Below are positions 1-15,865 of a DNA stretch of 64,000 nt, one piece after another. The number at the start of each line of letters is the position of its first letter. Positions within the stretch are counted from its first letter, which is position 1. The translations under genes were made by a program, and so were the position numbers. The notes below the pieces were generated by a model. That model was not told where the DNA came from. It ran no database searches and saw only the letters and a list, made by a program, of their open reading frames with translations. Source of the DNA: Methanolobus chelungpuianus (GTDB lineage Archaea > Halobacteriota > Methanosarcinia > Methanosarcinales > Methanosarcinaceae). The stretch covers positions 124,001 to 188,000 of the forward strand of contig NZ_JTEO01000006.1 of assembly GCF_024500045.1 (NCBI RefSeq), written 5' to 3'.

Positions 1-81
1 TAAACAAAGGCATGTTATTTTTGATGTTTCTAAAGTTAAAGTTTGATTTTGACGAGTATTTACATTGCTTTTGGTGATTTT

Positions 82-966
82 ATGACATTTGATAGTACTA
101 AATATACAGGGTTACCACACGGGTATCTAGATTATCACTATATACTTATGCATTTTGAAGAAGAAGACATTGCTAAAAAAGCTAGCAAAATTCAATCTTT
201 ATTCTCTAAACAAACAAAAAAATGGACAGATCAACTCAATTCTGAATGGATTGCAAGGAATTACTTATCTGCCAAGTTCATTCTTTCAACAAACTTATTA
301 GCTAGCTCACTAGATTATTCTATTGACCGAAATTTACAAACTGTTGTACCTTATCTATCATATTATTCAATTCTTACTGCTAGTAGATCTTATCTTATGA
401 CTTTGCCAAATGTCAGTTGGAATGATGGTTCTATTCTTACATATACACATGACAAAACAATAAAAATAGTTTCAGATTCATTACGTACTATTAATAAGGA
501 AATAGCAGATGATTTTCAAGAAAAGGTTTACTATTTAAAGGCTATTAGAGAACTATTTTCATACAAGTTTCCTTCAACCGGAATCGATTGCGTAACAAAC
601 AAATCAATGATTGGTTTGAATGATACTTTAAATTATTGTGGTCTTTTGTGTGAATTAGCTCAGCTAAACAGTGAATTTTTAGAAGCTTCATTTAACAAAA
701 ATGCAGAAAAAAGACGATTCCCAATTATTGAAGAAATCTTTTGGGGAATAATGCAATATGAAGATAGACCTTCACAAATTTCTTTTGTAGATGACTTTGA
801 TTGGGAGCGAATTGCACAATGGACAAGGACTGAAAGACCTGTTAATCTAACTCTTTCAATGCGGGAAGGTTGGATTGATGATTTTTTTGCATCCTGGGAA
901 GAAGGTTCTCATTCTGATAATGACGACTTTATTCCAAACCCAAGAATTGTGTTTTCAGTTCCTTAA
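82..966 (+). CDS. Hypothetical helical protein, 294 aa
   Basis: The ATG at 82 is preceded by GGTGAT at 73-78, a good methanogen ribosome-binding site, so I prefer it to the upstream TTG at 43. The product is soluble, with no signal peptide or membrane segment, and appears mostly alpha-helical. It has an aromatic stretch (YLSYYSILTASRSYL, about residues 90-104) of the kind seen in HEPN-like folds, but I see no clear R-x4-6-H catalytic motif. The C-terminal 40 residues are acidic. It lies convergent with the next gene across a large palindrome. Very AT-rich codon use matches the rest of the mobile region. Function unknown; probably cargo of the element. Confidence 0.7.
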   Translation: MTFDSTKYTGLPHGYLDYHYILMHFEEEDIAKKASKIQSLFSKQTKKWTDQLNSEWIARNYLSAKFILSTNLLASSLDYSIDRNLQTVVPYLSYYSILTASRSYLMTLPNVSWNDGSILTYTHDKTIKIVSDSLRTINKEIADDFQEKVYYLKAIRELFSYKFPSTGIDCVTNKSMIGLNDTLNYCGLLCELAQLNSEFLEASFNKNAEKRRFPIIEEIFWGIMQYEDRPSQISFVDDFDWERIAQWTRTERPVNLTLSMREGWIDDFFASWEEGSHSDNDDFIPNPRIVFSVP

Positions 967-1045
967 ATAAGCCATATATTCATTTAAACTGTTATATTAA
1001 AAAGAAATTGTGAATAAATTCACTTATGCAACTGTTCTAATTTGG

Positions 1046-1086
1046 TTTGTATCAAATCAAAAATTCAATTTTTACGTTGATACAAA
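1046..1086. terminator. Nested 41-bp palindrome between convergent genes
   Basis: Arms TTTGTATCAA (1046-1055) and TTGATACAAA (1077-1086) are perfect inverted copies and share their centre (1066) with an inner palindrome AAAAATT-C-AATTTTT (1059-1073); only three base pairs per arm do not match. It sits between the convergent genes ending at 966 and 1175. A bidirectional terminator is the simplest reading; a protein-binding dyad is the alternative. Confidence 0.55.
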
Positions 1087-1120
1087 TCGTGTTATTTCTA
1101 TAAGGTACTAATAATCTTTA

Positions 1121-1147
1121 TTTAACTAAAATCCGTATGCGGATATT
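1121..1147. repeat. Direct repeat copy 1 (degenerate tail of the 36-aa gene)
   Basis: This stretch matches 2101-2127 with a few substitutions, beginning with an identical 13-mer tttaactaaaatc. Read on the minus strand it encodes a degenerate version of the last codons of the cysteine-rich miniprotein (PHTDFS stop versus PHADFS stop). The two copies flank the 287-aa gene at 1175-2038, so that gene looks like a cassette brought in or duplicated by recombination between the tails. Confidence 0.6.
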
Positions 1148-1174
1148 TTATGGAATTAATTCTAAACAGATAGT

Positions 1175-2038
1175 TTAGCTTTTATTCGAGAATTCAACCG
1201 ATTGATTAGTATTGTCAAAAGTATTTAGCAAATAACTGCTAGCTAAAATAGTATTTGAATCTAAATCAGAACTAATATTGCTGGCTTGGTCATTAAGAGA
1301 TGAAAGGCTATTGTTAATTGCACCGAGTTTTGTATCTATATTGCCTAGTTGTTGTTCATAATTTGTTTCAAGTATAAGGTATGTGTTAAATATCGTTAAG
1401 AGAATTACTAATACAGTCATAGCGGCTGTTAATTTGAAATGAAATGCATTTTGCTTTGATCCCTCATCTAATTGTTTTTTTATATTTATTGATGCTTTGA
1501 TGATTCCTGCATCGGCAGGTTCACAAAAATTATACAACTTAGGTGATAGAAGGCCATGTTCATAATCCAAACGTTCCTGCTTTTCGCAAATACCTCTTAT
1601 ATTTCCAAGATCAAGGCAATCATAATAACTAGAGCATCTTCTAACTTCATAGAGTTCATATTCTTCAATTGTCTCTTCATGTTTGTCAGAAAACTCTTTA
1701 AGGCATGAGTCTGAGCAAAAATTATCACATTCAATTAGCTTATCTTCCAAGTGGTTTCCAACTTGTACTTCTTCATATTTTCTCAAAGAAAAAAACATGT
1801 AGTTATTGATATTTTTATTGCATATTTCACAAACATCTATAGACTCAGCATTGCCACTGTTGTCTGAATCGTTTATTTGTGCGATTGTCTTTTTTACGGA
1901 CTTTTGTCTACCCTGAAATAAAGAAGTATGAGATGGAAGCATCATTTTATTTAGATCGCTTAGAGTTGAACCAATGTTTAGAGAAGACAATATTTTTTCG
2001 TTCTCTCCAAAAAGTTCCCCTATGGTTTTTTTCGACAT
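1175..2038 (-). CDS. Zinc-binding, single-pass membrane, coiled-coil protein, 287 aa
   Basis: Domains in order: a polar N-terminus (1-65); a cysteine-rich segment with CEIC near residue 70 and a later C-x3-C pair (CDNFCSDSC, about 104-112) plus further cysteines, likely a treble-clef or zinc-ribbon type metal site; one hydrophobic helix near residues 202-222 (MTVLVILLTIFNTYLIL); and a C-terminal heptad-like region rich in L, I, S and N that should form a coiled coil. No known family recognised. The layout (sensor-like zinc domain, membrane anchor, coiled coil) could suit a defence effector or a membrane-tethered nuclease partner, but no catalytic motif is visible. It is flanked by direct repeats (1121-1147, 2101-2127) and sits downstream of the casposon replication operon. 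Confidence 0.7.
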   Translation of the reverse strand: MSKKTIGELFGENEKILSSLNIGSTLSDLNKMMLPSHTSLFQGRQKSVKKTIAQINDSDNSGNAESIDVCEICNKNINNYMFFSLRKYEEVQVGNHLEDKLIECDNFCSDSCLKEFSDKHEETIEEYELYEVRRCSSYYDCLDLGNIRGICEKQERLDYEHGLLSPKLYNFCEPADAGIIKASINIKKQLDEGSKQNAFHFKLTAAMTVLVILLTIFNTYLILETNYEQQLGNIDTKLGAINNSLSSLNDQASNISSDLDSNTILASSYLLNTFDNTNQSVEFSNKS

Positions 2039-2100
2039 TATTCTTTTATCTTCTAATTAACTATATTTCCTTTTCTGCACTATACATCCCTAATTGACCA

Positions 2101-2127
2101 TTTAACTAAAATCTGCATGCGGGCATT
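2101..2127. repeat. Direct repeat copy 2 (tail of the 36-aa gene)
   Basis: This is the intact counterpart of the 1121-1147 repeat and forms the last codons and stop of the 36-aa miniprotein gene. The pair brackets the 287-aa gene about 980 bp apart. Confidence 0.6.
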
Positions 2128-2212
2128 CTTCAGGATTATAATCCCATCTACAGTTTTCAAAATGCTCGCAGCCTTCACATATGCTTTCTAAAAATTCTAG
2201 TGTTTCACCCAT
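2102..2212 (-). CDS. Cysteine-rich miniprotein, 36 aa
   Basis: A short reading frame starting at ATG 2212 and ending TAA at 2102 encodes a 36-residue acidic peptide with the pattern C-x2-C (residues 12 and 15), then single cysteines at 21 and 30, the last followed by P-H. Four cysteines plus a terminal histidine fit a small zinc knuckle. It lies in the same direction as and 85 bp downstream of polB. The survival of a degenerate copy of its tail at 1121-1147 argues that the frame is a real, duplicated gene. Function unknown; a small DNA-binding or anti-defence peptide is possible. Confidence 0.5.
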   Translation of the reverse strand: MGETLEFLESICEGCEHFENCRWDYNPEECPHADFS

Positions 2213-2297
2213 TTACAATCACTTCACTTTTTTCTTAGTATTGCTTAACATTGTCTTACTTAAATTATATATTTTTCTAATAAGGAAAGATGGAAAA

Positions 2298-4994
2298 TTA
2301 ATAGTAAATTGCTTTTAGCACCTTCTTCATCTCCTTGGTATTCATATTAAAGTCACCTTCTCTTACCCTATCCTTCAATTGCTTTAATGAACTCCTGTGT
2401 TTAATCCCAATTTTTCTGGCCTCATCAGGAGTTAAATTGTCTACAAATTCCCTCACTTCTTCTATGTTCGGATAGATCTCAACATGAATGCCTTCTAACT
2501 CCTGCATCTCAATCTTATTGGCTTCCTTGCCTACATACACGCATCCTGTGGGCTTTAGATTTCTTCTTTGTAGAACACCAATATCACCTTCAAATTTGGC
2601 TTCTGGATGGTTTATGTAGCTAAGAAACACGTCAGCTAACGGCTTCCAGAGGTGTCTCCCCTGACAAATATCTCCTGTATAAGAGTCTATACATTTTTTC
2701 TCGACTACTACCTGAGGGTTTTTGTTAAAAGGAGCAATGGGTTTTATGCTCTCTCCTTTCTCATTGACTGTTGCACCACTTCCAACAAGCATGAAATTGA
2801 AAGGTTTGATTTGTTCAGAAAATTCCTTGCCTTCGTTCATTTTCTTGAAGCGTAGCAGAATATTTCCAGTTGATACAGTAAGGTTGGAGATAACTGCATA
2901 ATAGTCGTAAGTCTCCAATACATCAATTAACTCTTCAGGATGGAAATGAACTTTGAGAATGTCATCCCAAAATCTTTTGTGCCAATGTTCCCCTTCCTTC
3001 AATTCAAGACTAAACGGATTTGTGATATGTCCTAAACCATGTAGCTTATAGAAGAGTTTCTTACCTTCTGGAATGACTATTTTGTTTCCTTCTCTTCTAA
3101 ACAAACAGTACCTTTTGGAACTGATACCATAGAACCAGATATCTTCCATCCCATCCTCTATTTCCAGAATTGGCTTATCAAAGTCATAAGGGTTAAGTGA
3201 ATCAAAGAGGTGGCTCAATTCCTCTGCAAGATATGGAGGAACAAAAATTGAATCTGTATCCATATATGCATGAACTTCCCCTTTATCCATTACATACCTT
3301 TCAGCAATAGCAATTAACAAACGTGATCCTGCTGTAATGCATGCACCGATAATTGGATTGAAAAACGCTGCTGTTTCTTCAAATATCCCTTTTGTCTCAT
3401 AATCAATATTGCTATATGCAGTCAAATCTTCCTCATCTTTTGGATGCATTTCAATGTAAATACCGTATGTAGTTGCATTATTAAGAATTTTAACTGCCTT
3501 TTGCTGTGCATCAAGAACATCATATTCATGTGAGTCTCTAGGAAGTGATTTCATTTTTTGTTTAATCTCTTGCCTGCGTTCAACAAGGACTTTGATAAGA
3601 TTATCTTCTTTTGGATTTACATGAACTCCATAGACCTCTGTTTCCTTGAGATCCTCCTGAATGCCTTCTGGAATAAACCTCATAGCTCTCTTTATCTTCG
3701 GAGATTTGCCTGTAAACAACTTTGAGGCTAAAACATCGGGTAGGAAGTAAAACAGTCTTTTATCCCATGTTATTTTATTAACTCCAATATTGAAGGTCGC
3801 ATCCTTTTCACTATATTTTGATCTAACTGGAAAAATATCTTCTTCAGGCTCAATTTCAACAAGGACAACTAAGTCCTTCCATATATCAGGATTTAGTGCA
3901 TCTTCTAAAGTGAATGACTCTATCAATCTACGAACATTTTCTGTATCATCTGTGTGGTGAACACTTTTTGCGACAACAAATTTCCACATATCAAGAAGTA
4001 GTGTTACAGTTGGGTACATACTGAAAAAGTCTAGCACTGTAACCTTTGTAGGTGTTTTTCTCATCCTGCACTCACATCTTCCTCCATAGTATCCACTCAT
4101 TATTTTTCCAAGAACCTCTGGAGGAAAATCAGGATTTTGATCCATGAAAGGTGTGATATTGCATTGTTTGAGGGCTTGTTTTCCAAGAGAAGCAGCAGAG
4201 TAGACATCAGTCATTGAAATATTTAACTGGTATCTTTCATATTCCTGCCTTACTTTTTTGAATACCTCATAAGTGGATTTTACATCTGTAATGTTGTAAG
4301 CAATATATTTTGGAGTTATCACACCGTGCTTCTTTGTTTTTTGCTTCTTTATTGGTGTATCAAATATCTCACATGCCTTTTCAAGAGTAAGAGATTTGCT
4401 ATCTGTCAAAATGCATGCTAGATTACAGATATCCAGAAAATGACCTTTGAACGTTCTCTCCTTCCTGTACTTACCCTTCGCTCTTGTAAACTCGACATTG
4501 TATGATCTCCCTGTAAGATGTTTTATGCGTATTCTAGGGTATGTTGTATCCTCAGTAAGCAAAAAAGAAAAACCATCTTTGCCTGAGTACCTTCCATGAC
4601 CATAATCAAGAATGATTCTTGAGAGATCAAAATTGAGATTAAAACCAATACAGAGAGCTTTTCTTTCATAGACTTCCAGATAAAAGAGCTTGATAAACTC
4701 TTCAAGAGAAAACAAGCGTATATTATGCTTTTCAGAGAATTTTTCTAGTATCTTGTATTCTTTCTCTGAAACATGTCTCTCATCCCAGAAGAGGCCACCA
4801 TAATGAAAAACATCATTCTCATGTACATCAAAGTAACCAAATTTTAAGTTAAGATATTCATCAGCCGTTGTTTCTGTATCAAAAGTAAGAACTCTGGTAA
4901 ATTCAGGAACTTCCTTCTCATATCTAAAATTAGTCTTCTTTTTCTCTTTAGTTTCTTTTTTCGTAGGGTATATTCGCAAAGCTACTTTATTCAT
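2298..4994 (-). CDS. polB: Casposon family B DNA polymerase, 898 aa
   Basis: Replicates the element, presumably during its self-synthesising transposition cycle. The 3'-5' exonuclease domain is intact: Exo I FDTET (about 38-42), Exo II FNLNFDLSRI (about 117-126) and Exo III YNITD (about 234-238). Polymerase motifs are also intact: motif A DFFSMYPT (about 322-329), motif B K-ILNNATTYG (about 507-517) and motif C YMDTDS (about 583-588). The start overlaps the HNH stop by ATGA (4991-4994), showing translational coupling. The basic N-terminal tail (lysine-rich, residues 8-22) may bind DNA. Length is normal for archaeal mobile-element PolB. Activity looks preserved, so the element may still be mobile. 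Confidence 0.95.
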   Translation of the reverse strand: MNKVALRIYPTKKETKEKKKTNFRYEKEVPEFTRVLTFDTETTADEYLNLKFGYFDVHENDVFHYGGLFWDERHVSEKEYKILEKFSEKHNIRLFSLEEFIKLFYLEVYERKALCIGFNLNFDLSRIILDYGHGRYSGKDGFSFLLTEDTTYPRIRIKHLTGRSYNVEFTRAKGKYRKERTFKGHFLDICNLACILTDSKSLTLEKACEIFDTPIKKQKTKKHGVITPKYIAYNITDVKSTYEVFKKVRQEYERYQLNISMTDVYSAASLGKQALKQCNITPFMDQNPDFPPEVLGKIMSGYYGGRCECRMRKTPTKVTVLDFFSMYPTVTLLLDMWKFVVAKSVHHTDDTENVRRLIESFTLEDALNPDIWKDLVVLVEIEPEEDIFPVRSKYSEKDATFNIGVNKITWDKRLFYFLPDVLASKLFTGKSPKIKRAMRFIPEGIQEDLKETEVYGVHVNPKEDNLIKVLVERRQEIKQKMKSLPRDSHEYDVLDAQQKAVKILNNATTYGIYIEMHPKDEEDLTAYSNIDYETKGIFEETAAFFNPIIGACITAGSRLLIAIAERYVMDKGEVHAYMDTDSIFVPPYLAEELSHLFDSLNPYDFDKPILEIEDGMEDIWFYGISSKRYCLFRREGNKIVIPEGKKLFYKLHGLGHITNPFSLELKEGEHWHKRFWDDILKVHFHPEELIDVLETYDYYAVISNLTVSTGNILLRFKKMNEGKEFSEQIKPFNFMLVGSGATVNEKGESIKPIAPFNKNPQVVVEKKCIDSYTGDICQGRHLWKPLADVFLSYINHPEAKFEGDIGVLQRRNLKPTGCVYVGKEANKIEMQELEGIHVEIYPNIEEVREFVDNLTPDEARKIGIKHRSSLKQLKDRVREGDFNMNTKEMKKVLKAIYY

Positions 4995-5341
4995 TCAATC
5001 GCCTCACATCTTTGTTTTAAAAGATCAATTTCAACTTCATCCATACGTTTTCTTAATGCTGCATGTGAAAGCAAAATGTAGTTTAGTCTCTTCTCTAGAG
5101 GTAATTTGCTTGACCTAAACTTGGGTGGCAGTTCATTCTGAAAATGTGTTACAGCAGCATGACAGTTCAGACACAGAACCCTTGTTTCATTCGAAAAGGC
5201 TCTTGTAGAAATATGGTGATTTTCGTAGATTTTCAGTGCATAAGGGTTGGTTTCTCCACAAATTTCACAGATACCATTTTTAACAAGCTGTTCATCCTTA
5301 GCTTGCTGTTTTATCTGTAAAATGAAATCTTCGTTGGACAA
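4991..5341 (-). CDS. HNH endonuclease, 116 aa
   Basis: A small HNH nuclease with a paired zinc site: C-x2-C at residues about 25-28 (CEICGETNP), the catalytic HH dyad (YENHHIS, about 41-47) and a second C-x2-C-H (CLNCHA, about 57-62). HNH nucleases are a standard casposon component, and may nick DNA during excision or replication. It is the third gene of the RHH-HTH-HNH-polB operon, 25 bp after the HTH gene, and overlaps polB by four bases. Confidence 0.88.
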   Translation of the reverse strand: MSNEDFILQIKQQAKDEQLVKNGICEICGETNPYALKIYENHHISTRAFSNETRVLCLNCHAAVTHFQNELPPKFRSSKLPLEKRLNYILLSHAALRKRMDEVEIDLLKQRCEAIE

Positions 5342-5366
5342 GCCTAACCCTCAATTATCAAAAAGT

Positions 5367-6011
5367 TCAGATTCTGTTGTCGTATACTGGCAATGATTCA
5401 GAATCCTCTATCTGTTCCTTAAGCTCGTATAACTTGTCAAGATCAGTCTCAAGTGGATATTCTTTACCATCTACTCCCTTTATCCTGACATCTTTGAAAG
5501 GTTCAAGTAGAGTTTTATCTGTTTTATTCAGAGCAATCCTGACAACATTCAGATATCTGCTGATAAGAGATCCATCCCTTGAGCTATTGACTACAACACT
5601 GATTCTTTTACCATTCGAGAAAATCCATCTATTCCTTTCAATGCTGTCTGTTTTTGTGGCAACCCACTTGCCACTCTTTTTAAAAACAGCATTACCAAGG
5701 TGTCTGAGAGCATCCTTTACACTGATTCCTTGCTCCTTTGCAGCTAAAGTGAAGTTCTTTCCTTTCCTTAGATTGCTTAATGCCAGAAGAGCTCTAGCTC
5801 TCATGTCGGCCTCTTCAGGAGAAAGCATAGCATACGCTTTCAGAGCTGGAGATACATCCGATACCCTCATTTTACGGAGAGTGCTAAGTGTAGCTGAAGG
5901 ATCAAGCTTGTGTTTCCTGATGATCTCTTTTGCATACCTGGTATCTCTTGGAATAGCTTTGAGCCATTCACCGTAGGTCCTATACTCCTTAGAGAATCTT
6001 GGCCTGCTCAT
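5367..6011 (-). CDS. Casposon HTH protein, 214 aa
   Basis: A basic protein with at least one helix-turn-helix, best seen at about residues 85-110 (FTLAAKEQGISVKDALRHLG), and a second helical unit earlier in the chain (residues 30-60). The C-terminal third (about 125-190) looks like a small beta-rich domain. HTH proteins of this size sit beside polB in casposons, where they may act as replication initiator-like, terminal-repeat-binding or regulatory proteins; the specific role here is inference. Its ATG overlaps the stop of the ribbon-helix-helix gene (6008-6011, ATGA), so the two are coupled. Confidence 0.8.
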   Translation of the reverse strand: MSRPRFSKEYRTYGEWLKAIPRDTRYAKEIIRKHKLDPSATLSTLRKMRVSDVSPALKAYAMLSPEEADMRARALLALSNLRKGKNFTLAAKEQGISVKDALRHLGNAVFKKSGKWVATKTDSIERNRWIFSNGKRISVVVNSSRDGSLISRYLNVVRIALNKTDKTLLEPFKDVRIKGVDGKEYPLETDLDKLYELKEQIEDSESLPVYDNRI

Positions 6012-6148
6012 CTCTCTTCCTCCCAGAGCTTCATTAAGGCAATTCTTACAACCTCAGCCTGGGAACATCCAAAGAAGTCTGACATCAATTCCAGTTTCTC
6101 CCTGTAATAGGGAGCCAGTGTTATTGTTAATCTGTTTACTGGTGGCAT
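6008..6148 (-). CDS. Ribbon-helix-helix (CopG/Arc-like) regulator, 46 aa
   Basis: This gene begins at ATG 6148 and ends in TGA overlapping the HTH start. The 46-residue product has the compact RHH layout: a beta strand with alternating side chains (NRLTITLAP, residues 5-13), helix A (YREKLELMSDFFG) and helix B (SQAEVVRIALMKLWEE). Such proteins are autoregulating repressors of plasmid and transposon operons. As first gene of the replication operon, next to a promoter carrying repeated AACTAT boxes, it is the obvious candidate repressor. TTGGTGAGAAAA precedes the start, giving a GGTGAG ribosome-binding site. Confidence 0.85.
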   Translation of the reverse strand: MPPVNRLTITLAPYYREKLELMSDFFGCSQAEVVRIALMKLWEEER

Positions 6149-6330
6149 TTTTCTCACCAACAACTGAAATTACCGCATGATTTATATTCAAATGTGACAT
6201 CATATTTGACATATAAAAAACCAGAATTTGCTATGCAACTATTCTAGTTTGAGAACTATAATCTGATACTTGATAACTATTTAACAACTATTTGTCTAAG
6301 CTACATGTATAAGAAAGTGACAGTGTTTGT
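6149..6330. promoter_or_regulatory. Divergent casposon control region with AACTAT repeats
   Basis: The 182 bp between the divergent replication operon and the wHTH-cas1 operon hold four direct AACTAT copies (6237-6242, 6254-6259, 6275-6280, 6286-6291). A dyad-like CAAAT...ATTTG element lies at 6190-6209 and a TATA-like ATATAAAA at 6211-6218. A 20-mer at 6233-6252 (atgcaactattctagtttga) recurs with three changes at 1026-1045. The repeats are likely operators for the RHH or wHTH protein; which protein binds is inference. Confidence 0.6.
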
Positions 6331-7203
6331 ATGAGCAAAAATGAAAATGACAAAACTCTCATTGAAGAATTAAAGGAATACGTCTCTAGTTACGGAATTG
6401 TAAAGAAAGAAGACATTGTAAACAAATATGAAAAAGCTCACTCGCGCGGCTACAGTAAAGAAACCATTGGCAGAAGATTAGATGATTTGGTAAGTGCAGG
6501 AATCATAGAGAAACTGTCTGCTAAACAAGTCAAGAAATATGGGATCAATGCAACAGATAATCGTGAAAAGTACTTTATGCTAAAGGAGAATACGGAAATA
6601 AAAAAGCATATTGATTCTGTTTTTAAGCTCTTTGAAGATGGCGATTGTGAAGATAAACTGGCTGCTTTAGGGGAAATGGATACTTATAAGAATTATTACA
6701 TTTTAGAACCGCTGCAATTAGATATTCTGGTTAAAAGCCTTAGTGAAAACGACATTGAATTGTCATATCAGCTAATAGTAGTTATTTATCACTATATTGT
6801 GGATAAAAATATCCAACCAAGCGACATCAACTTACTACTTACAAAGCTGAGATTACTTTTGAAAAATATACAACCTCTGTCTCAACAACGTCCTGTTCTT
6901 AGAGGGAATATTATTGCTTTACTTTGCATGTACGATGATGAAGCTGTAGTTGAACAACTTATTGAAGATGCCAAGACAATGGAAAACTTTGCAGATGTAA
7001 AGGATGAATATGATAAACTATATGCTTCGAGCTTAATCGAGAAGAATAGAACTAAGCTCTTTAATCTTGAAATTGAGTTGAGAAAAAAAGGTAAGCACAA
7101 AAATGCTAAAGTTCTTTCTCAAATAAGGCATCAGGCAAGAAAAGGTATAGATATATCGGTGCTTGATGGCAATGTTAATACTCCGGGGGCTGATCTTAAA
7201 TGA
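6331..7203 (+). CDS. Winged-helix protein coupled to casposase, 290 aa
   Basis: The N-terminal 80 residues form a winged helix-turn-helix (recognition helix around SKETIGRRLDDLVSAGIIEKL, read as two motifs near residues 42-62). The remaining 200 residues are helical with HEAT-like character and no catalytic motif. The stop overlaps the cas1 start (7200-7203, ATGA), so the protein is made together with the casposase. A role as transposition cofactor or as regulator of the cas1 promoter fits this position. Start chosen at ATG 6331 after a run with AGAAAGTGA. Confidence 0.8.
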   Translation: MSKNENDKTLIEELKEYVSSYGIVKKEDIVNKYEKAHSRGYSKETIGRRLDDLVSAGIIEKLSAKQVKKYGINATDNREKYFMLKENTEIKKHIDSVFKLFEDGDCEDKLAALGEMDTYKNYYILEPLQLDILVKSLSENDIELSYQLIVVIYHYIVDKNIQPSDINLLLTKLRLLLKNIQPLSQQRPVLRGNIIALLCMYDDEAVVEQLIEDAKTMENFADVKDEYDKLYASSLIEKNRTKLFNLEIELRKKGKHKNAKVLSQIRHQARKGIDISVLDGNVNTPGADLK

Positions 7204-8414
7204 GATTTTTACTGTTGAATGGGAATGGCATCGATATTCGTGTAAATAACGCTAAACTACATGTCAGGGATGGAAGATTCTCGACAACTGAAATTCCCGA
7301 AGAATATGTTTACTCTCCAAAGAGAATGGACATTGATAGCATTATCATCTATGGTCAGAACGGAAATCTCACGCTTGATGCTATAAGATGGCTGATAAAA
7401 CATAATGTTCAGATTTCAATACTCAACTGGGACGGTAAATTATTGACTACAATGCTTCCACCTGAGAGCACTAATGTCAAGACAAAGTTTGCTCAATATC
7501 ATGCTTTTGAGGATGAGCAAGCAAGAGTCAAAATCGCAAAGAACTTCATTGAAGCTAAGTTTGATAAAACTCTTGTAGTACTTGATTACCTAAAACAACG
7601 CTATCCTGAAATCGAGTATGATTTAGCAGAGGACTTTGAGAAACTAGAGAAAGCCAAGACCATCAAGGAAATAATGGGTGTTGAGGGCGGTGTTGCCTAC
7701 AAATACTGGAACGAGTTCTCAAAAGCCATTCCTGATAAATACGATTTTGAATCGAGGATTGATTCGAGCCGGAGAGCCACAGGCGCAGGGGACGTGGTAA
7801 ACGCTATGCTTAACTATGGCTATGCTTTGCTAGAGGCAGAGGGCCTAAGGGCCATTAACGCTGTGGGCCTAGATCCTCATGTAGGTTTTCTGCATGAAAT
7901 GACAACTAGCAAGAATAGTTTGGCTTACGACCTGCAAGAACCTTTCAGGTTCTTAGTAGATCTCGCTGTTTTGAGTCTCATAGAACAAGATCGTATGGAG
8001 AAGAAAGATTTCATTAGAACTGAAAGTTACTCCTTGCGCCTGAGACCCACTGGTGCAAAGAAACTAACTGAAGAAATCAACCTGTGGTTTAACAAGAGAG
8101 TTAATCATCAAGGCAATATGACAATGTGGAGTTATGTCATGTTCTTGAAAACTAGGGAATTGGCTCAGTATTTGGTTGGTAAGCGACAGGAGACAGATTT
8201 TGTAGAGCCACAATATGAGACAAAGAGACAGGATACAAGCGACATAAGACAGAAGATTCTCAGTATTTCTTATTCCGATTGGAAAAAGCTAGGTTTTTCA
8301 AAAGGAACATTGCATTATATGAAACAAAATGCAAAGGCAGATACTCCTTTTACTCTTAATGCTCATAATAAAGAACGTTTGGATAAGTGGGAGAAACTTG
8401 TTGCAAATAGCTAA
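7200..8414 (+). CDS. cas1: Casposase (Cas1-family integrase), 404 aa
   Basis: Integrase of the casposon, homologous to the CRISPR adaptation nuclease. The N-terminal beta domain (1-85) has the typical Cas1 pattern ending SILNWDGKLL. The alpha-helical catalytic domain carries the three expected metal ligands: E162 (VEGG), H227 (LDPHVG) and E247 (DLQEPFR). A charged linker (about 327-352) leads to a C-terminal HTH (about 354-376, YSDWKKLGFSKGTLHYM), an addition typical of casposases rather than CRISPR Cas1. There is no cas2 gene and no CRISPR array in the window. The catalytic residues look intact. The 3' part of the gene contains clustered GAGACA-like motifs. Confidence 0.95.
   Translation: MRFLLLNGNGIDIRVNNAKLHVRDGRFSTTEIPEEYVYSPKRMDIDSIIIYGQNGNLTLDAIRWLIKHNVQISILNWDGKLLTTMLPPESTNVKTKFAQYHAFEDEQARVKIAKNFIEAKFDKTLVVLDYLKQRYPEIEYDLAEDFEKLEKAKTIKEIMGVEGGVAYKYWNEFSKAIPDKYDFESRIDSSRRATGAGDVVNAMLNYGYALLEAEGLRAINAVGLDPHVGFLHEMTTSKNSLAYDLQEPFRFLVDLAVLSLIEQDRMEKKDFIRTESYSLRLRPTGAKKLTEEINLWFNKRVNHQGNMTMWSYVMFLKTRELAQYLVGKRQETDFVEPQYETKRQDTSDIRQKILSISYSDWKKLGFSKGTLHYMKQNAKADTPFTLNAHNKERLDKWEKLVANS
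8183..8251 (+). repeat. GAGACA-like motif cluster inside cas1 3' end
   Basis: Copies of (G/A)(A/C)GACA occur at 8183, 8190, 8217, 8225, 8239 and 8246, with a degenerate GATACA at 8232; the last five are spaced 7-8 bp apart. They encode the charged linker before the casposase HTH. The same hexamer recurs outside the gene at 8423-8539. Confidence 0.6.
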
Positions 8415-8421
8415 CTTTGAT

Positions 8422-8448
8422 GGAGACATGTAGTCTCCTTTTGTCTCT
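8422..8448 (+). terminator. Hairpin and T-rich tail after cas1
   Basis: GGAGAC-atgta-GTCTCC (8422-8438) is a perfect six-base-pair stem followed by a pyrimidine-rich run CTTTTGTCTCTTC. It begins eight bases after the cas1 stop and lies between convergent cas1 and hsdS, so it may terminate both. Confidence 0.55.
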
Positions 8449-8539
8449 TCGTGCGATATCTAGGAGACAATTCCAAGAGATATGAGAGACAAATGCAAGC
8501 GACAGACAAGAGACAGACACAGAAGACAACTAAGAGACA
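8423..8539 (+). repeat. GAGACA repeat cluster between cas1 and hsdS
   Basis: GAGACA occurs at 8423, 8464, 8486, 8510 and 8534, with GCGACA at 8499 and AAGACA at 8524; from 8486 on the spacing is 11-14 bp, close to one helical turn. Two copies in the opposite orientation lie at 8433-8438 and 8443-8448. Helically phased repeats suggest binding sites for an oligomeric protein; simple slippage of a purine-rich tract is the alternative. Confidence 0.6.
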
Positions 8540-8541
8540 GA

Positions 8542-10020
8542 TTATTTTTTCTGTTTCTTAATGCTCGCTCCCTCAACTTTAATCCTCTCCAACAGCATTT
8601 CAGCAGACTCATAATCCCTGTCTTCCTGTCTGGCAAGCTCTGCCTCAGTAGGCACAAGTTCTCCTGAAAAAGCCTTTGCAAGAATAGATTGCCTGAGTTG
8701 ATCTGTTTTTTCTTTTGCTGCTATAACTTTTGATTCAATGGAATCGGCAAAAGCAAAGAGTGCACTTACCCTAAAAATAATTTCCTTTTGTTCAGCAAGA
8801 GGTGGAAAAGGAAGAGGCATGGAAGCTAACTGTTGTTGATTAATAGAAGCCATATTGACTGTTTGCTGTGCATTCAAATTGAAATACCCTTGTGCATAAA
8901 CTTGAAACCAATAACCAATGTATTCGCTTAAGATATATTGCTTAAAGACTCTTAACCGAATGTTTTTACTTTCGTAGATGCAAGCTTCAATACCATTCGG
9001 AATAGGTGCAGCTTTACCAACTAATTCTCTGCTGTTTACTCGATTCACAAGGATATCTCCTGGCTCAAGAAGATATTCAGCTATTTCTTCTGAAGATAAA
9101 TTCATCCTTTTGATGTTTTTCCAAACTATTGCTCCATTATCAATATTATACATTCTCAGACACGCAATTCCATCGTCTGAGTAAAATTCCTGTGGCTTGT
9201 AAATACCATTTTTCATTGATTCAGATATTAAGTCTATACAAGTCCAACACCAATTAGTTGGTAATTCGTAAGGGACATCACAAATTGCATCTTTTGTTTG
9301 CTTTTTCTTTGAAAGTTTGCTTTTATCCGTAGTGATATATTCTAAGATCGTTTTTGCGCTTTCAATGTCGGAATTATGTAATCTCCAATCTTCCGTCAGC
9401 CTCCCATCACAAGCAGCCATTAGAACAGCCTGCCTGAAAGCCTTCATGATTTCCGGCACTTTGTCAAGCCTCTCGTTTGTCGCATCTAGACGGGCGAACA
9501 GTGCCTCGATTGCTGCGACTATGCGGTGTTGTTCGGGGAGGGGAGGGAGAGGTACAGGATAACTGGATAAACTCTTTGCAGATAAATTAGGTTGAGCAGT
9601 ACCGTTGTCAAAAGTCTTGATTAACTTTTTCCCAAAAGGGCTAGTTAAAAAATAGTACATGTAGGAATTAATTGTTGCTTCGTTAAGTCTGAGAATTACT
9701 AATGAAGATGCAATCGCCCCATTTTTCATACCCGAGAACACTGCACATTTACCTAGTGTTCCTCTCAAGCAATAAATGATGTCCCCTTCAATGAGTTTTC
9801 CACTGTTAAGTAAATTATATCTTTCATCACTTATGAAGTTCAAATTTTCAGTTGATACTTTACCATTAAAGAGGTTTCCAGCATTAATGAAAGGTATTCC
9901 TGAGTCAACATAATGTCTGTTTGATGGATAGTTTTTGCCTCTATCGCCATTAATCAGAATTCCAAGATTCTTTACTTCTGTCCAAATCCACCCTTCCAGC
10001 AGTTCACTCTTCTGTTGCAT
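8542..10020 (-). CDS. hsdS: Type I restriction enzyme specificity subunit HsdS, 492 aa
   Basis: Determines the bipartite DNA target of the type I complex. Two target-recognition domains are visible, each followed by the conserved helical spacer: LPPLPEQHRIV and helix to about residue 205, and FPPLAEQKEII with helix to about 450. The first half contains the usual GxI..IxxGDIIYC pattern; the second the GDILVNRVN pattern. The C-terminal tail is lysine-rich. It starts inside the end of hsdM (overlap 10004-10020), and its stop abuts the GAGACA repeat cluster. Length is slightly above the family norm. Confidence 0.95.
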   Translation of the reverse strand: MQQKSELLEGWIWTEVKNLGILINGDRGKNYPSNRHYVDSGIPFINAGNLFNGKVSTENLNFISDERYNLLNSGKLIEGDIIYCLRGTLGKCAVFSGMKNGAIASSLVILRLNEATINSYMYYFLTSPFGKKLIKTFDNGTAQPNLSAKSLSSYPVPLPPLPEQHRIVAAIEALFARLDATNERLDKVPEIMKAFRQAVLMAACDGRLTEDWRLHNSDIESAKTILEYITTDKSKLSKKKQTKDAICDVPYELPTNWCWTCIDLISESMKNGIYKPQEFYSDDGIACLRMYNIDNGAIVWKNIKRMNLSSEEIAEYLLEPGDILVNRVNSRELVGKAAPIPNGIEACIYESKNIRLRVFKQYILSEYIGYWFQVYAQGYFNLNAQQTVNMASINQQQLASMPLPFPPLAEQKEIIFRVSALFAFADSIESKVIAAKEKTDQLRQSILAKAFSGELVPTEAELARQEDRDYESAEMLLERIKVEGASIKKQKK

Positions 10021-11428
10021 AACCGTTCCCCATTAGGTCCAGAATTGCATTCAACTCACTAACTGCTGCTTCAAGTTCATCTATTGCTTCAGCAGCAAGT
10101 TCTTCAGGCCCAAGTAAATCATCAGTATCTCCTAAGGAATCGTCCCTTAGCCATTTGAGAGAATCAATTTTGTAATTCCTCTCTTTAAGTTCAGAAATGT
10201 GGAACTTGTGCCAGCGATTATCCTGTGAGTCTTTTTCCTCACGTTTTGCCCTGCCGTTAGGATCATCACCAAAGCATCTCTCAAACTCTTGAAAATGTTC
10301 TTTGGTAAGTGGACGATCTTTCTTTGTGATTTTAGGAACATTTGTACGGCAATCATATACCCAGGTATGCTCTGTGGGAATGCCTTTGGTGAAGAATATC
10401 ACATTTGTTTTAGTTCCGGGGGAATATGGTGTAAAAGTACCATCAGGCAATCTCAAGACAGTATGTAAGTCACAGTCTTCACAGAGCACCTTGAAAACCT
10501 CTCCTGCCTGATCTGCAAAAAGCACGTTATCTGGTACTACGATAGCTGCTCTGCCACCGGGCTTCAAGATGGTCATGACATGTTCAATGAAATTCAGTTG
10601 CTTGTTGGATGTTTCAACAACAAAATCTTCACGTCCGGGAGACTGGTTTGCACCTTTGGTTCCAAACGGAGGATTGGTAAGCACCACATCAAACCTTTTA
10701 GAATCCGGTATCTCATAGATAGAGTCACCAAGTTTGATCTCAGGTTCAATCCCATGCAAATACAGGTTCATGAGAGCTAACCTGCGTGGACGCTCCACAA
10801 GCTCTTGTCCGTGATATGTACTGTAACGGATGCGTTTAGCAAGGTCACGGTCCACTGCACCTCCTGCGGTGATCTCCTTAAGCCACTCATAGGCAGATAC
10901 AAGAAAGCCACCTGTACCACATGCAGGGTCCATTATAGCAAACTCCCTGCTGGCGCGTGGGTCTGGCTTCATACACCTTACTATCATCTGGATAACTATA
11001 CGTGGAGTGAAATACTGCCCTGCACCCTTTTTACCTTCACTGGCAGCCTTTTCCAGTAGTCCTTCAAAAGCCATTGCCTTTACATCGATGTCAAGACCTG
11101 TCCACTCGGTTTCATCAATGAGTGTAATCATCTTTTTAAGGCTTACAGGGTTGTGGAAACGGGAGAGAGCACCTGCAAAGATATCACCAAGAAGACCGTC
11201 CTGCTTACCAAGAGTCCTCAATGCATCACTATAATGCTCTGTAAGTTCTATGCCAGACTGCTCTTTCAGGGATTGCCATCCACAAGCTTCAGGCATTTCA
11301 ATGCCTCTCTCATCAGCCATTTTCAGAAACAGCAGGTAAGTGATTTGCTCAATATAATCGCCGTAATCAATGCCTTCATGCCTTAAAGTATGGCAAAAAC
11401 CCCATAGTTTTTGTACAATATCGCTCAT
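10004..11428 (-). CDS. hsdM: Type I DNA methyltransferase subunit HsdM, 474 aa
   Basis: N6-adenine methyltransferase of the type I complex. The helical N-terminal domain (1-130, LWGFCHTLRHEGIDYGDYIEQI) is followed by the catalytic domain with SAM motif DPACGTGGFL (about 165-174) and catalytic NPPFG (about 252-256). The C-terminal part interacts with HsdS by family precedent. Overlaps hsdR stop by four bases and hsdS start by 17, so the three genes are one operon read hsdR-hsdM-hsdS. Confidence 0.96.
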   Translation of the reverse strand: MSDIVQKLWGFCHTLRHEGIDYGDYIEQITYLLFLKMADERGIEMPEACGWQSLKEQSGIELTEHYSDALRTLGKQDGLLGDIFAGALSRFHNPVSLKKMITLIDETEWTGLDIDVKAMAFEGLLEKAASEGKKGAGQYFTPRIVIQMIVRCMKPDPRASREFAIMDPACGTGGFLVSAYEWLKEITAGGAVDRDLAKRIRYSTYHGQELVERPRRLALMNLYLHGIEPEIKLGDSIYEIPDSKRFDVVLTNPPFGTKGANQSPGREDFVVETSNKQLNFIEHVMTILKPGGRAAIVVPDNVLFADQAGEVFKVLCEDCDLHTVLRLPDGTFTPYSPGTKTNVIFFTKGIPTEHTWVYDCRTNVPKITKKDRPLTKEHFQEFERCFGDDPNGRAKREEKDSQDNRWHKFHISELKERNYKIDSLKWLRDDSLGDTDDLLGPEELAAEAIDELEAAVSELNAILDLMGNGYATEE

Positions 11429-14103
11429 GCTGCAACTGCCCTGTTAAATTCTGTTATTAAGGTTACAAGCTGGCCTTCAAAGATCCGGTTGGCCTTATTC
11501 CATCCGCCATAATCGGCAAACACCGGAATATAATCGAAGTCCTCTTTATCGATAGAGAGGTTTGCAATCAGATGTGACTTGATGCGTTCCAGCCATAAAA
11601 GCTGATCTGTTGTAAAGCTTTTCCCCATCGTAACCTTGGAAAAAGCATTGCTTACACGCTCTTCTGCTGTTAGCAAAGCTTCTTCCTCAGAGGCAGCATG
11701 TTTTATCATTGAGATAATGTCTACAAGAGCCTTACTGTATTTGATTTGATGTGCTCTTTGAAGATTTTCAACTGTAAATCTTTGCTGAGAAGATTCCAGT
11801 TTTTTCTTTAATTCTTCAAGTGCATCTGTACTCCATTCTTGTGGCCTGTCAAGAAGAATACCAATTGCAGCTATCTTTTCAGGATTCTCCTTTACGAAAT
11901 TAGAAAACAATTCAAGATAATCATCTGGCCTGTACTCGTTACCTGAAGCATCTCTCACTATCCAAGTAGAAGAAACAGAGTCCCTTTCTCCATAATCCAC
12001 ATAGAATGTCTTCTTTGGTCTCGGATAGTTCTCAAGCAGATTCAAAAAGTCCTTATTCCTCAGGACTTCCATAGTTCCGGTAAAGTCCTCTTCAAGCCTT
12101 CTTTCAAGAGAAATTGCAAAACTCTTGAGATCTCCTTTCTCGATGAAAGCACTGAACATATCACGCGCTTCCCCACTCATCTCCTTGTCTATCCTGTTGA
12201 GACGCTTTGTAAGAATACGAGTATTATATTTCCTGTCCCGGTTATTCCAGATGTCTTCAATTACCTTGCTAATTGGCTTAACTTCTTTTTGTGGAGGTTC
12301 TGCTGTCACTCCTGTAACTGATTTGAAATAATCAATGAGAGTCCCTCCAAAACAATCAAAGACTACAAAGTGAGATTTATCAGGATAGTGCTCGCCCTTT
12401 CTAGTTCCTCTCCCCATCATTTGTTCAAATAGGATTCTTGATTTAACATATCTCAAGAAAACAATATATTCAAGATCTGGAACATCAACTCCGGTTGAGA
12501 GAAGATCAACAGTCACAGCAATTCCAGGCATTTTTCTATTCCTGAATTCCCTTATTCTCTGCAAAGGACGGTCTACCTTACCTGTAATCTTCTGAACAAA
12601 AGAATCTCCTTTTCCAAAAACATCTCTTGCAAGATCAACGATTTGATCAGCATGAGAAGTAAAAGCTATATCATTCACAGCAAAAATCAGAGTCTTAGGA
12701 AAACGTCCATATCTCTTTTCATGTTCATCTGCATAGCGTTTAATCTCTTCAAGGATCTTCCTGTTTGAATCAATAGATGTTATTTCTCGTTCTATTTTCT
12801 CCGCTGAAAACTCCCTTTCATCCTCAAGCATGTCAATATCACGAAGTCCGGTTTCAGGGTCTATAACCTCAACAGCCTCTCCTTCATGAAGAAAAATACC
12901 GTTCATGCGAACACCGGATTCCAGGGCTACAATATCATAATCTACTAGATAACCATCCCTGACAGCCTGCTCATAACCATACTTGTAAACAATCTCCTTG
13001 AAATATGCAGACGTGTGAGCGGCAGGAGTAGCTGTAAGTCCTACTTTTATAGCATCAAAATGGTCAAGGGTCTTTCTCCAAGTAGAAATTTCCTGTGCAG
13101 AGTAACCCCTATGACATTCATCAGCAATAATTAAGTCAAAAGCATGTATGGGAATATTTAACTGACTTGCATCTTCATCTTCAGTCTCATCACAACAGGA
13201 GAACGCAGATGTTTTCCCAAACAGGTTTATTGTCATTCTCTGGATAGTAGAAACATATACAAAGCTGTGTTCCGGTTTAGGGTCAGTCAGGTAAGATTCA
13301 GGCATTGCATTTACATCAAAAGTTTCATCCTCTCCAAGGTCACCACGCTGAAAACGCTGGCTATAAACTTCATAGGTCTTATCGAACTTTAAACCCTGTT
13401 CAGTTTCAAAAGATGAAAAAGCCCTAACAGCCTGTGCAGCAAGAGCCCTTCGATCTACTAAGAACAAAACCCTTTTAGCGACACCTGCTTTCATTAATCG
13501 ATAGATGAGATTTACAACAGTGAATGTTTTCCCCGTTCCTGTTGCCATCGCAAGCATCATTGTTCTTTTCTTGTTGGCAATAGCCTTCCCAACAGAATCA
13601 CACGCTTCACATTGGTATGGTCTCATGTATTGATTATCTGGAATGGAAAAGAAGCTAGTTATTGTCTCATCATTATCAATGTTTAGTCTTTCAAGCAAAG
13701 CTTCGGGTGTATGGAAACCTGATACTTTTCTAGAGCGATTCAGAGGATTACGAACATCATGATACAATATTTCTGTACCGTTTGTTGAATACAAAAACGG
13801 AACTTTAAACCCATCAAAATTAAACCCACTATTAGACACTCCTTTTGAGTATCTTTCTGCCTGTGTGAGGACATTTTGTGGTCCTAAAGTGACTTTCTTG
13901 GCTTCAATGATTCCAAGTATCTTCCCGTCCACACACAATGCATAATCAGCAGGACCATTAGAAGTGGGATATTCCCCAATTGCACATTTATTGTACTCTG
14001 ATAGTACCTTTGTGTAATCATAGAGTGCAACCTTCCAACCTTCTGTAACCAGCAAAGGATCAATGAGCTTTTTCCTTGTCTGCTTTTCGGTAAGAGTTTG
14101 CAT
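11425..14103 (-). CDS. hsdR: Type I restriction enzyme motor/nuclease subunit HsdR, 892 aa
   Basis: Translocates and cuts unmethylated DNA. The N-terminal PD-(D/E)xK nuclease is seen as PADYAL...GIIEAKK (about residues 51-70). The SF2 helicase core follows: Walker A ATGTGKT (about 187-193), DECHRG (about 327-332) in place of DEAH, LTATP (about 354-358) and motif VI MMGRGTRKG (about 585-593). The C-terminal helical region contacts HsdM. No frameshift or truncation is visible, so the system looks functional. It is the first gene of the hsd operon and is divergent from the 14271 unit. Confidence 0.96.
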   Translation of the reverse strand: MQTLTEKQTRKKLIDPLLVTEGWKVALYDYTKVLSEYNKCAIGEYPTSNGPADYALCVDGKILGIIEAKKVTLGPQNVLTQAERYSKGVSNSGFNFDGFKVPFLYSTNGTEILYHDVRNPLNRSRKVSGFHTPEALLERLNIDNDETITSFFSIPDNQYMRPYQCEACDSVGKAIANKKRTMMLAMATGTGKTFTVVNLIYRLMKAGVAKRVLFLVDRRALAAQAVRAFSSFETEQGLKFDKTYEVYSQRFQRGDLGEDETFDVNAMPESYLTDPKPEHSFVYVSTIQRMTINLFGKTSAFSCCDETEDEDASQLNIPIHAFDLIIADECHRGYSAQEISTWRKTLDHFDAIKVGLTATPAAHTSAYFKEIVYKYGYEQAVRDGYLVDYDIVALESGVRMNGIFLHEGEAVEVIDPETGLRDIDMLEDEREFSAEKIEREITSIDSNRKILEEIKRYADEHEKRYGRFPKTLIFAVNDIAFTSHADQIVDLARDVFGKGDSFVQKITGKVDRPLQRIREFRNRKMPGIAVTVDLLSTGVDVPDLEYIVFLRYVKSRILFEQMMGRGTRKGEHYPDKSHFVVFDCFGGTLIDYFKSVTGVTAEPPQKEVKPISKVIEDIWNNRDRKYNTRILTKRLNRIDKEMSGEARDMFSAFIEKGDLKSFAISLERRLEEDFTGTMEVLRNKDFLNLLENYPRPKKTFYVDYGERDSVSSTWIVRDASGNEYRPDDYLELFSNFVKENPEKIAAIGILLDRPQEWSTDALEELKKKLESSQQRFTVENLQRAHQIKYSKALVDIISMIKHAASEEEALLTAEERVSNAFSKVTMGKSFTTDQLLWLERIKSHLIANLSIDKEDFDYIPVFADYGGWNKANRIFEGQLVTLITEFNRAVAA

Positions 14104-14270
14104 TTGAATTCCTCGATAGTGAGAGCAACTAAACTTCAGAACATATTCTATTTAAACATATAAATAGGTTCATAGTGAAACATTACACCAAAGCAAGACG
14201 TTAATTGAAAACATGCACACATAGTTAATAAATTATATATAGAGTTCTTAGCATTCTTAAATAGGTAACA
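14104..14270. promoter_or_regulatory. Divergent promoter of hsdR and the 14271 gene pair
   Basis: The 167 bp contain a TATA-like AATTATATATAG at 14230-14241 for the rightward unit, with AGGT five bases before ATG 14271. An inverted repeat CTATTTA-aacata-TAAATAG lies near 14149-14168 and may provide the hsdR TATA element. The AT content is among the highest in the window. Confidence 0.5.
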
Positions 14271-15119
14271 ATGACTAGAACGATTCAAGTAAGCCTTGGG
14301 AGAATCACCCATAAATCATTTGGGAAAGAAGATCCTTTTGGAGTTATATTAAGAGGTCTTAAAGGAAAAAACATCGTATCTACAAAATCGTTTTTGTATC
14401 ATTTAAAAAATGTGTTTGCATATTCCAAATCTGACTTTAAAGTAATTTATGGGGAATTATATAAATCAAAGTTATCATCTAAACATCAAGTCTTAGATAA
14501 GACAAATCTAACCTATGGCCCAGAGATAATTGATGAGTTCTTTTCTGTAAGTCAATTTGTTATATTTAGAGACTTATCAATCGTTTTTACAAGTAGTTCG
14601 AAATTGCGAGATGATAACTTTATTGAAATGATTGAAATTTTGTATGGTCTTAACTCCGAGGAGTTATTTTCTCAAATTGAGGTTCATTATCGAAAAGAAG
14701 ATTTTGATATTTTCAAAAAGATTGAATCGTTTTCTAGGATGATTGAAGTTGAATTGATCAACATCAGAAAATCAAATCCTACCCCACGACCAACATTTGA
14801 AAAAATAGAAGCGTTTTTAAGTCGAGAAAGAACCGATGTCTTAAATGCCAAATTTAAATCTGAAACATCAGATGGATTAGCAAGAGATCTGGAAAGTCAT
14901 ATAATGAGCGGAATTTCTATTTCAGATAGTGGCTATGGAGATAGCATAATAACTGGACAGAAACAAAATGGTGACTTTGAAACAATAAGGTTAAAAGACA
15001 AAGTAATAAGAAAAAGAATCCAATATCTTCCTCTTGAAGAAAAAGAACAGTTCATTAATTTGATAATTGAAATGTTTGGAAAATATGTTTCCTCAGAGGA
15101 TGATTTGATTCATGATTAA
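14271..15119 (+). CDS. Unknown soluble protein of a two-gene candidate defence unit, 282 aa
   Basis: No family recognised. The product is soluble, mixed alpha/beta, with a strand-rich N-terminal half (about 1-120, including FVIFRDLSIVFTSS) and a helical C-terminal half. No signal peptide, no membrane helix, no cysteine cluster. It overlaps the next gene, a four-helix membrane protein, by eight bases (15112-15119), so the two are translated together. Size, gene order and the soluble-plus-membrane pairing resemble phage lambda RexA-RexB in architecture only; I see no convincing sequence identity to RexA. Position between a type I restriction operon and the tRNA boundary favours a defence role. 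A DUF4747-type phage-related protein is another possibility. Confidence 0.7.
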   Translation: MTRTIQVSLGRITHKSFGKEDPFGVILRGLKGKNIVSTKSFLYHLKNVFAYSKSDFKVIYGELYKSKLSSKHQVLDKTNLTYGPEIIDEFFSVSQFVIFRDLSIVFTSSSKLRDDNFIEMIEILYGLNSEELFSQIEVHYRKEDFDIFKKIESFSRMIEVELINIRKSNPTPRPTFEKIEAFLSRERTDVLNAKFKSETSDGLARDLESHIMSGISISDSGYGDSIITGQKQNGDFETIRLKDKVIRKRIQYLPLEEKEQFINLIIEMFGKYVSSEDDLIHD

Positions 15120-15615
15120 AAATATTGTCAAATATAGAAAAAGCATCTTTGAAGATGTGGGCTTATACCTTTCAATATTCATTCCTCTTATTATTTTCTA
15201 TTTGCTAAAGCCTTGGGAAATGAATATAGTTTTAGATAAAGGCAATGTTTTTAATACATCTGTTGCAATAATCGCACTCTCAATAGGTTTTTGTTATCAA
15301 GCTTTTAATTACTTAAACGATTTAGATACAAATGATTTGTTTTATAAAAAACTTTTAAAAACTGAAATTTTCGATGAAATTCACTTTTTATTTACATATA
15401 GCATTTATGTTAGTGCCTTAAACATTATAACCTTAGTAATATTCACTATTTTTGTATGGTTCGGAATTACTAATGATTTTTACCTCGTAATCATAGGTTT
15501 GGTTCCATCAATTTTCACATTCTATACACTATCAGAGTTTATTAATTTTTATAGAAGTGGTGTTGGGCTAAAAAAGTACAAACTGGAATTTGATAAAATT
15601 CAATCACTTGAATGA
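15112..15615 (+). CDS. Four-helix membrane protein of the candidate defence unit, 167 aa
   Basis: Four hydrophobic segments are clear: about 18-34 (VGLYLSIFIPLIIFYLL), 48-68, 90-117 and 120-147, with short loops and a charged cytosolic tail. No catalytic motif. A small four-helix protein made with a soluble partner suggests a membrane effector (channel or pore) under control of the upstream protein, as in RexB or KwaA-type systems; this is architectural inference. It is the last gene before the tRNA, ending 84 bp from its 3' end. Confidence 0.7.
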   Translation: MIKNIVKYRKSIFEDVGLYLSIFIPLIIFYLLKPWEMNIVLDKGNVFNTSVAIIALSIGFCYQAFNYLNDLDTNDLFYKKLLKTEIFDEIHFLFTYSIYVSALNIITLVIFTIFVWFGITNDFYLVIIGLVPSIFTFYTLSEFINFYRSGVGLKKYKLEFDKIQSLE

Positions 15616-15698
15616 ATTTTATTATTATATTTAGTTATTTATTCCTTCAAATTTTGAGCGTACACTTTTTTAGCGTTGTATATATCCCAAAAACCATA

Positions 15699-15782
15699 TG
15701 CGAGGGGAGGGATTTGAACCCTCGAAATCCTTCGATACCGGATCTTAAGTCCGGCGCCTTTGACCAGCTGGGCAACCCTCGC
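15699..15782 (-). tRNA. tRNA-Leu (anticodon UAA), casposon target
   Basis: The minus strand folds into a complete class II tRNA: acceptor GCGAGGG/CCCTCGC, D arm, anticodon arm CCGGA-CTTAAGA-TCCGG with anticodon TAA, a long variable arm typical of tRNA-Leu, and T arm GAGGG-TTCAAAT-CCCTC. Discriminator A is at 15699; CCA is not encoded. The 3' end faces the mobile element, the classic casposon attachment geometry. A TATA box at 15841-15850 lies about 60 bp upstream. Confidence 0.95.
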
Positions 15783-15838
15783 AGTGAGAAGAACAGAGTT
15801 ACTTGCCTTTCGGAATTGTAAGCCACTAATAAGTGTTA

Positions 15839-15852: not shown

Positions 15853-15865
15853 TATTCTAGTAAAT

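Follow-up and report, generated by a model that had tools for sequence, protein, structure and literature searches.

Genes and features of the locus

The window, that is, the whole 64,000-bp stretch of DNA analyzed (C6:124001-188000 of Methanolobus chelungpuianus), carries most of a casposon that ends beside an intact tRNA-Leu(UAA) gene. The genes of this element, its terminal inverted repeats (TIRs), its target site duplication (TSD), and its tRNA target fit casposon family 2 (PMC4046053, PMC9939771). The features are as follows, in window coordinates unless a contig is named.

C6:121742-123881 (L006 3743-5882), left of the window: relic casposon with a Cas1 fragment, two cargo-like ORFs, and the terminus GGGTTATAGTTAACAGC; far half missing
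1..15688, no strand: casposon body; full element C6:123896-139688, 15,793 bp, with TIR and TSD on both sides
43..966, plus strand: cargo ORF, 307 aa, no family
1175..2038, minus strand: cargo ORF, 287 aa, partly Cys rich and with one hydrophobic segment; without a significant family match
2298..4994, minus strand: PolB, family B DNA polymerase, 898 aa (Pfam DNA_pol_B_2, 1.7e-12; DNA_pol_B, 2.8e-7)
4991..5341, minus strand: HNH-type protein, 116 aa; CxxC...HH...CxxC seen in the sequence, same position in related casposons
5367..6011, minus strand: protein of 214 aa conserved with casposons, probable HTH1
6331..7203, plus strand: conserved casposon protein, 290 aa, probable HTH2, directly 5' of cas1, with a winged-helix-like start
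7200..8414, plus strand: casposase Cas1, 404 aa, with a C-terminal HTH (Pfam Cas_Cas1, 2.8e-68)
8542..10020, minus strand: HsdS, type I restriction-modification (RM) specificity subunit, 492 aa (Pfam Methylase_S, 4.6e-28; PADLOC)
10004..11428, minus strand: HsdM, type I RM methyltransferase, 474 aa (Pfam N6_Mtase, 1.7e-61; PADLOC)
11425..14103, minus strand: HsdR, type I restriction enzyme, 892 aa (Pfam EcoEI_R_C, 3.8e-36; ResIII, 4.5e-35; PADLOC)
14271..15119, plus strand: cargo ORF, 282 aa, no family
15112..15615, plus strand: cargo ORF, 167 aa, hydrophobic and membrane-like, no family
15657..15688, minus strand: right TIR, 32 bp, 5'-GGGATATATACAACGCTAAAAAAGTGTACGCT, with a perfect inverted partner at C6:123896-123927
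15689..15702, minus strand: TSD 14-mer AAAAACCATATGCG, with an exact direct copy at C6:123882-123895 abutting the left TIR
15699..15782, minus strand: tRNA-Leu(UAA), the target gene; mature ends from acceptor-stem pairing in the sequence
15711..15717, minus strand: leader motif within the tRNA T arm, TCAAATC, separated from the downstream TSD by exactly 8 bp

Residues 1-403 of Cas1 matched the Methanosarcina mazei casposase (PDB 6opm) at 1.4e-193, in an alignment spanning 6opm residues 18-420 of 431 and including the C-terminal HTH region, which is highly conserved in the casposase alignment. The residues E162, H232, and E247, named as catalytic in the M. mazei casposase (PMC6977970), are present in this Cas1 and invariant in the alignment of 16 casposases. 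PolB is likewise conserved in related casposons, and the HNH-type, 214-aa, and 290-aa proteins keep their order there. These last three gave no significant family match in Pfam, NCBIfam, or PADLOC, with a weak Pfam hit of the 290-aa protein to Phage_rep_O (0.019), and the same searches returned no significant family for the cargo ORFs. Neither Cas2 nor CRISPR effector genes were found by Pfam among ten element ORFs. The type I RM set of hsdS, hsdM, and hsdR (8542-14103) looks complete and represents casposon cargo.

Boundaries of the element and its tRNA target

A genome search with window positions 15500-16000 returned a 32-bp match, inverted and 100% identical, at C6:123896-123927 in the 2.6-Mb genome; this left TIR copy lies 74 to 105 bases to the left of window base 1, and the two ends of the element agree at 32/32 bp. 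The left junction reads ACTATAACCC, then AAAAACCATATGCG, then GGGATATATACAACGCTAAAAAAGTGTACGCT, and the right junction reads AGCGTACACTTTTTTAGCGTTGTATATATCCC, then AAAAACCATATGCG, then AGGGGAGGG. Exact copies of AAAAACCATATGCG occur twice in the 2.6 Mb, both at the element junctions, while the reversed-pattern control occurs nowhere. Because TIR and 14-mer copies were located on both sides, the element can be measured at 15,793 bp, with its left end 105 bases outside the window. The M. mazei casposase was crystallized with a casposon end identical to the terminus of this element, TATATCCC (PMC6977970).

The sequence-only reading of this DNA had placed a casposon boundary at the tRNA-Leu 3' end, and the TIR and TSD lie there in an element that encodes a casposase Cas1. 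It had reported no second copy of the segment near 15700-15715 at 1-15698, and no second copy of the terminus was found in the window. It had also predicted that the element would exceed 15.7 kb, that a duplicate would lie to the left of base 1, and that a sequence inversely matching 15655-15698 would be found there; the measured length, the exact 14-mer at C6:123882-123895, and the perfect inverted copy of 15657-15688 bear these expectations out. The repeat itself had been misplaced near 15700-15715; it lies at 15689-15702, so a query with the former segment would miss it.

ARAGORN found a single tRNA in the window, a complete tRNA-Leu(UAA) on the minus strand (15698-15783), in line with the earlier claim that the gene is intact. 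The TSD consists of the last 4 tRNA nucleotides (CGCA) and 10 bp of 3' flank, and the tRNA is left intact because the duplication takes just those 4. A duplication of 14 to 15 bp of the tRNA end had been anticipated; the length holds, but just 4 of the 14 bases belong to the tRNA. The low-GC DNA had similarly been thought to stop exactly at the tRNA 3' end; the GC shift is real (0.30-0.44 left of the tRNA and mostly 0.44-0.57 to its right across 10 kb), but the boundary lies 10 bp past that end. The M. mazei casposase joins TATATCCC ends to a 14-bp target at the 3' end of tRNA-Leu, 4 bp of it within the tRNA, and in vitro integration by this enzyme requires the TSD plus 30 bp of the tRNA (PMC6977970). 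For the Aciduliprofundum boonei casposase, the leader motif was mapped to the same 8-bp spacing (PMC6614799), and TCRAATC occupies this position in all 24 related loci (24/24).

An older, truncated casposon on the far flank

The distal TSD abuts the terminus GGGTTATAGTTAACAGC of a second, older casposon, which reads GGGTTATAGTTAACAGCAAAAAACGGAAC on the tRNA strand and touches the TSD. Within this relic, an ORF at C6:121742-122395 encodes about 200 C-terminal residues of a second casposase, 71% identical to residues 202-399 of the window element's Cas1 and lacking at least the catalytic E162 and the N-terminal half. The older casposon stands head to tail with the window element, and the two thus form a tandem. 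Between 84 and 124 kb of C6, just weak matches to a third TSD copy, the expected mark of the older element's far end, were found left of the relic, and therefore its far half has probably been deleted.

If the insertion was fresh, the preinsertion arrangement would read tRNA-CGCATATGGTTTTT-GGGTTATAGTTAACAGC without the 15.8 kb. The nearest relative, G129, was considered as a preinsertion state with the same relic, its terminus being 82% alike over 61 bp, but was rejected: the interior does not align, and the contig ends 762 bp on.

Proposed insertion and alternative explanations

We consider it very probable that the 15,793-bp element belongs to casposon family 2 and inserted itself at the 3' end of tRNA-Leu(UAA) beside an older casposon. 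The element's own casposase would have carried out the insertion, probably reading TCAAATC in the T arm, which lies upstream at an 8-bp spacing, together with the CGCA border. It would then join both TATATCCC-3' ends to phosphates separated by 14 bp, one on each strand, and gap repair by the host would yield the 14-bp TSD. With an older casposon already at the site, the right end and Cas1 fragment of that casposon would come to lie beyond the distal TSD. Insertion would take place at the tRNA-proximal TSD, since that copy alone retains the tRNA leader, leaving the newest element nearest the tRNA; the array would therefore grow at its tRNA end.

Insertion at a tRNA 3' end together with low GC is also typical of integrase-type genomic islands or proviruses, in which a tyrosine recombinase would have used a tRNA-Leu att site and Cas1 would be mere cargo. 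We find this scarcely credible, given that perfect TIRs lie immediately inside the 14-bp duplication, which is the signature of a transposon, and that the repeat lies mostly outside the tRNA; moreover, the Pfam scan detected no tyrosine or serine recombinase family among the ORFs it covered, and Cas1 is the gene common to related elements with the same ends. The presence of CCC at both junctions could instead be read as a 17-bp duplication (CCCAAAAACCATATGCG) with a shorter TIR, in place of 14 bp. That reading is very improbable and was rejected, for the right CCC is the window element's own TIR end (GGG at the left end), whereas the left CCC was assigned to the terminus of the neighboring casposon; related elements likewise show 14 bp with GGG ends, and the single insertion L095 has 14 bp.

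A different question is whether the tandem arose by duplication or by recombination, between casposons or with the arrays of other strains, rather than by a second insertion on the tRNA side. Nonmatching ends in the related genomes G115, G119, and G123 imply that recombination within arrays occurs, and segmental duplication was left open for Methanolobus psychrophilus in the 2014 paper (PMC4046053). The window element, however, has matching TIRs (32/32), and it is not a copy of its neighbor, because both TIR and Cas1 (71% identity) differ between them. Such an origin is thus unlikely here, and self-insertion at the tRNA remains the preferred explanation.

Occupancy of tRNA-Leu(UAA) in related genomes

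Casposase homologues at 65 to 91% identity were found across the family, and a scan of named genomes placed casposase relatives in Methanolobus, Methanococcoides, Methanosarcina, Methanohalophilus, and others; none were found in viral contigs. An automated scan for TIRs and TSDs recovered more than 20 elements; in most of these the TSD is 14 bp long and the ends are GGG. At tRNA-Leu(UAA), the pattern CGCA-N10-GGG(A/T)(A/T)ATA was present in 24/27 genomes of the genus (G113-G119, G122-G125, G127-G138, and G000), the remaining 3 comprising two without a tRNA-Leu(UAA) match and one at a contig edge. In all genus genomes whose 3' flank was assembled (24/24), a casposon end lay exactly 14 bp past the CGCA start; none of them showed an empty site. 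Outside the family, the pattern occurred in 2/74 genomes, though multiple tRNA ends of this kind exist in most of them. Close relatives may differ in TIR class, as with G000 and G129 (88% identity in the flank versus 66% in the TIR), and the occupant of the site therefore changes.

The 10 nucleotides after CGCA diverge far more among close relatives than the 60 bp located 5' of the tRNA; between G119 and G137, for instance, 4/10 agree, compared with 98% for the 60 bp. This divergence may reflect either fast drift or casposons that carry their own copy of the target, as suggested for MetMaz-C1, and the 5' flank of the tRNA may be promoter constrained.

Order and polarity of the casposon arrays

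Array order was read at 11 loci with a complete tRNA-proximal casposon and its distal TSD. Another casposon terminus lies beyond the distal TSD in all of them (11/11), with four in a row in G133 and three in G134. The tRNA-proximal Cas1 covers 92 to 100% of the query without stops in 11/11 arrays, while the next-distal Cas1 is intact in G117 and G133 only. Cas1 is thus intact proximally and broken or absent next to it in nine arrays, with no case of the reverse and two ties (two-sided sign test, 0.004, for 11 arrays that come from related species and are not fully independent). Judged from these sequences, the order suggests array growth on the tRNA side, comparable to the growth of CRISPR arrays at the leader. 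The simplest reading is that the tRNA-proximal TSD alone retains the upstream motif, which is consistent with the in vitro need for the TSD plus 30 bp of tRNA (PMC6977970). In other genera or at other sites, 8/10 checked loci were tandem, L095 and L116 being single. L101, an M. mazei-like locus that has the same TSD, shows the leader motif next to one of its TSD copies and another casposon terminus beyond the second copy.

We lean toward the view that, throughout the genus, casposons permanently occupy the tRNA-Leu(UAA) 3' end as a polarized array, into which new casposons enter tRNA-proximally and displace older ones. If so, the array would be a dated record of casposon invasions under the growth rule of CRISPR arrays, with the tRNA as its "leader".

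Some tRNA-proximal casposons combine ends from two TIR classes, namely, L078 (G115), L084 (G119), and L081 (G123), with TSDs that are identical in G115 and G123 and similar in G119. These are probable products of recombination inside arrays.

Comparison with known systems

Leader-directed, polarized growth is a basic property of CRISPR arrays, and CRISPR adaptation is thought to descend from such transposons. In CRISPR adaptation by Cas1-Cas2, as in the casposon arrays, Cas1 integrates at a leader-repeat border, the target is duplicated, and growth appears to be on the leader side. Unlike a CRISPR array, the casposon array involves no Cas2, its inserts are transposons of 8 to 17 kb, and its leader is a tRNA gene.

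The closest known counterparts are the family 2 casposons of M. mazei (6opm; MetMaz1FA1A3-C2 and MetMaz-C1), which share with the window element a homologous casposase (1-403) and its catalytic residues, the TATATCCC terminus, the target at the tRNA-Leu 3' end (CGCA plus 10 nucleotides, 14-bp TSD), PolB, an HNH-like protein, and a reported tandem insertion. MetMaz-C1 is about 10 kb, versus 15.8 kb here, and the window element, unlike those of M. mazei, has a complete type I RM gene set and a truncated older casposon alongside. A remnant second casposon also adjoins MetPsy-C1 of Methanolobus psychrophilus R15, a member of the same genus as the window's relatives; its TIRs were not identifiable (PMC4046053), whereas the terminus of the remnant described here is visible and abuts the shared TSD. 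AciBoo-C1 of A. boonei is likewise a family 2 element at a tRNA 3' end with TCAAATC 8 bp upstream of the TSD, but its target is tRNA-Pro with the border dinucleotide CC, in contrast to tRNA-Leu and CG.

Earlier papers already describe family 2 casposons at tRNA-Leu, TSDs of 14 bp, and tandem arrays (PMC6977970, PMC9939771, PMC6563490, PMC10359463), and the element itself adds a member to a known casposon type: one that is well bounded, carries complete RM cargo, and is close to the M. mazei casposase, the only casposase whose structure is solved. The related loci are more useful than the element, in that casposons occupy every assembled site of the genus, with intact and decayed copies in a consistent order. 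They form a natural set with which to test whether leader-directed, polarized growth predates CRISPR, in its presumed ancestral transposons. No statement on array polarity or whole-genus occupancy was found in the literature searched, the scope of which excluded Krupovic 2016 (tandem family 2), and priority for array polarity is not claimed.

Casposon ends away from intact tRNA-Leu genes

Casposon ends also occur beside mimics of the tRNA 3' end (TTCGAATC-N4-CCCCTCGCA) outside recognizable tRNA genes, at L086, L104, L113, and L115 (Methanococcoides-type genomes G098, G099, and G096), L263-L265, and L259. The mimic is in several cases located ∼55 bp within another casposon end, as if casposons carried a landing pad for other casposons; G096 has 11 mimic-linked ends. 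L108, L116, L207, and L251 contain pieces of the tRNA-Leu 3' half (variable arm and T arm), which lie beside casposon ends and away from intact tRNA-Leu genes. In the genome under study, a 57-aa Cas1 scrap lies 2.1 kb from tRNA-Leu(UAG) on C4 (G000 C4:749190-751602, L017), in a region that also has several paralogous HTH regulator genes, and the 3' flank of this tRNA, CGCATGCGATTTTT followed by GAAGAGTTAACAG, resembles a decayed casposon end.
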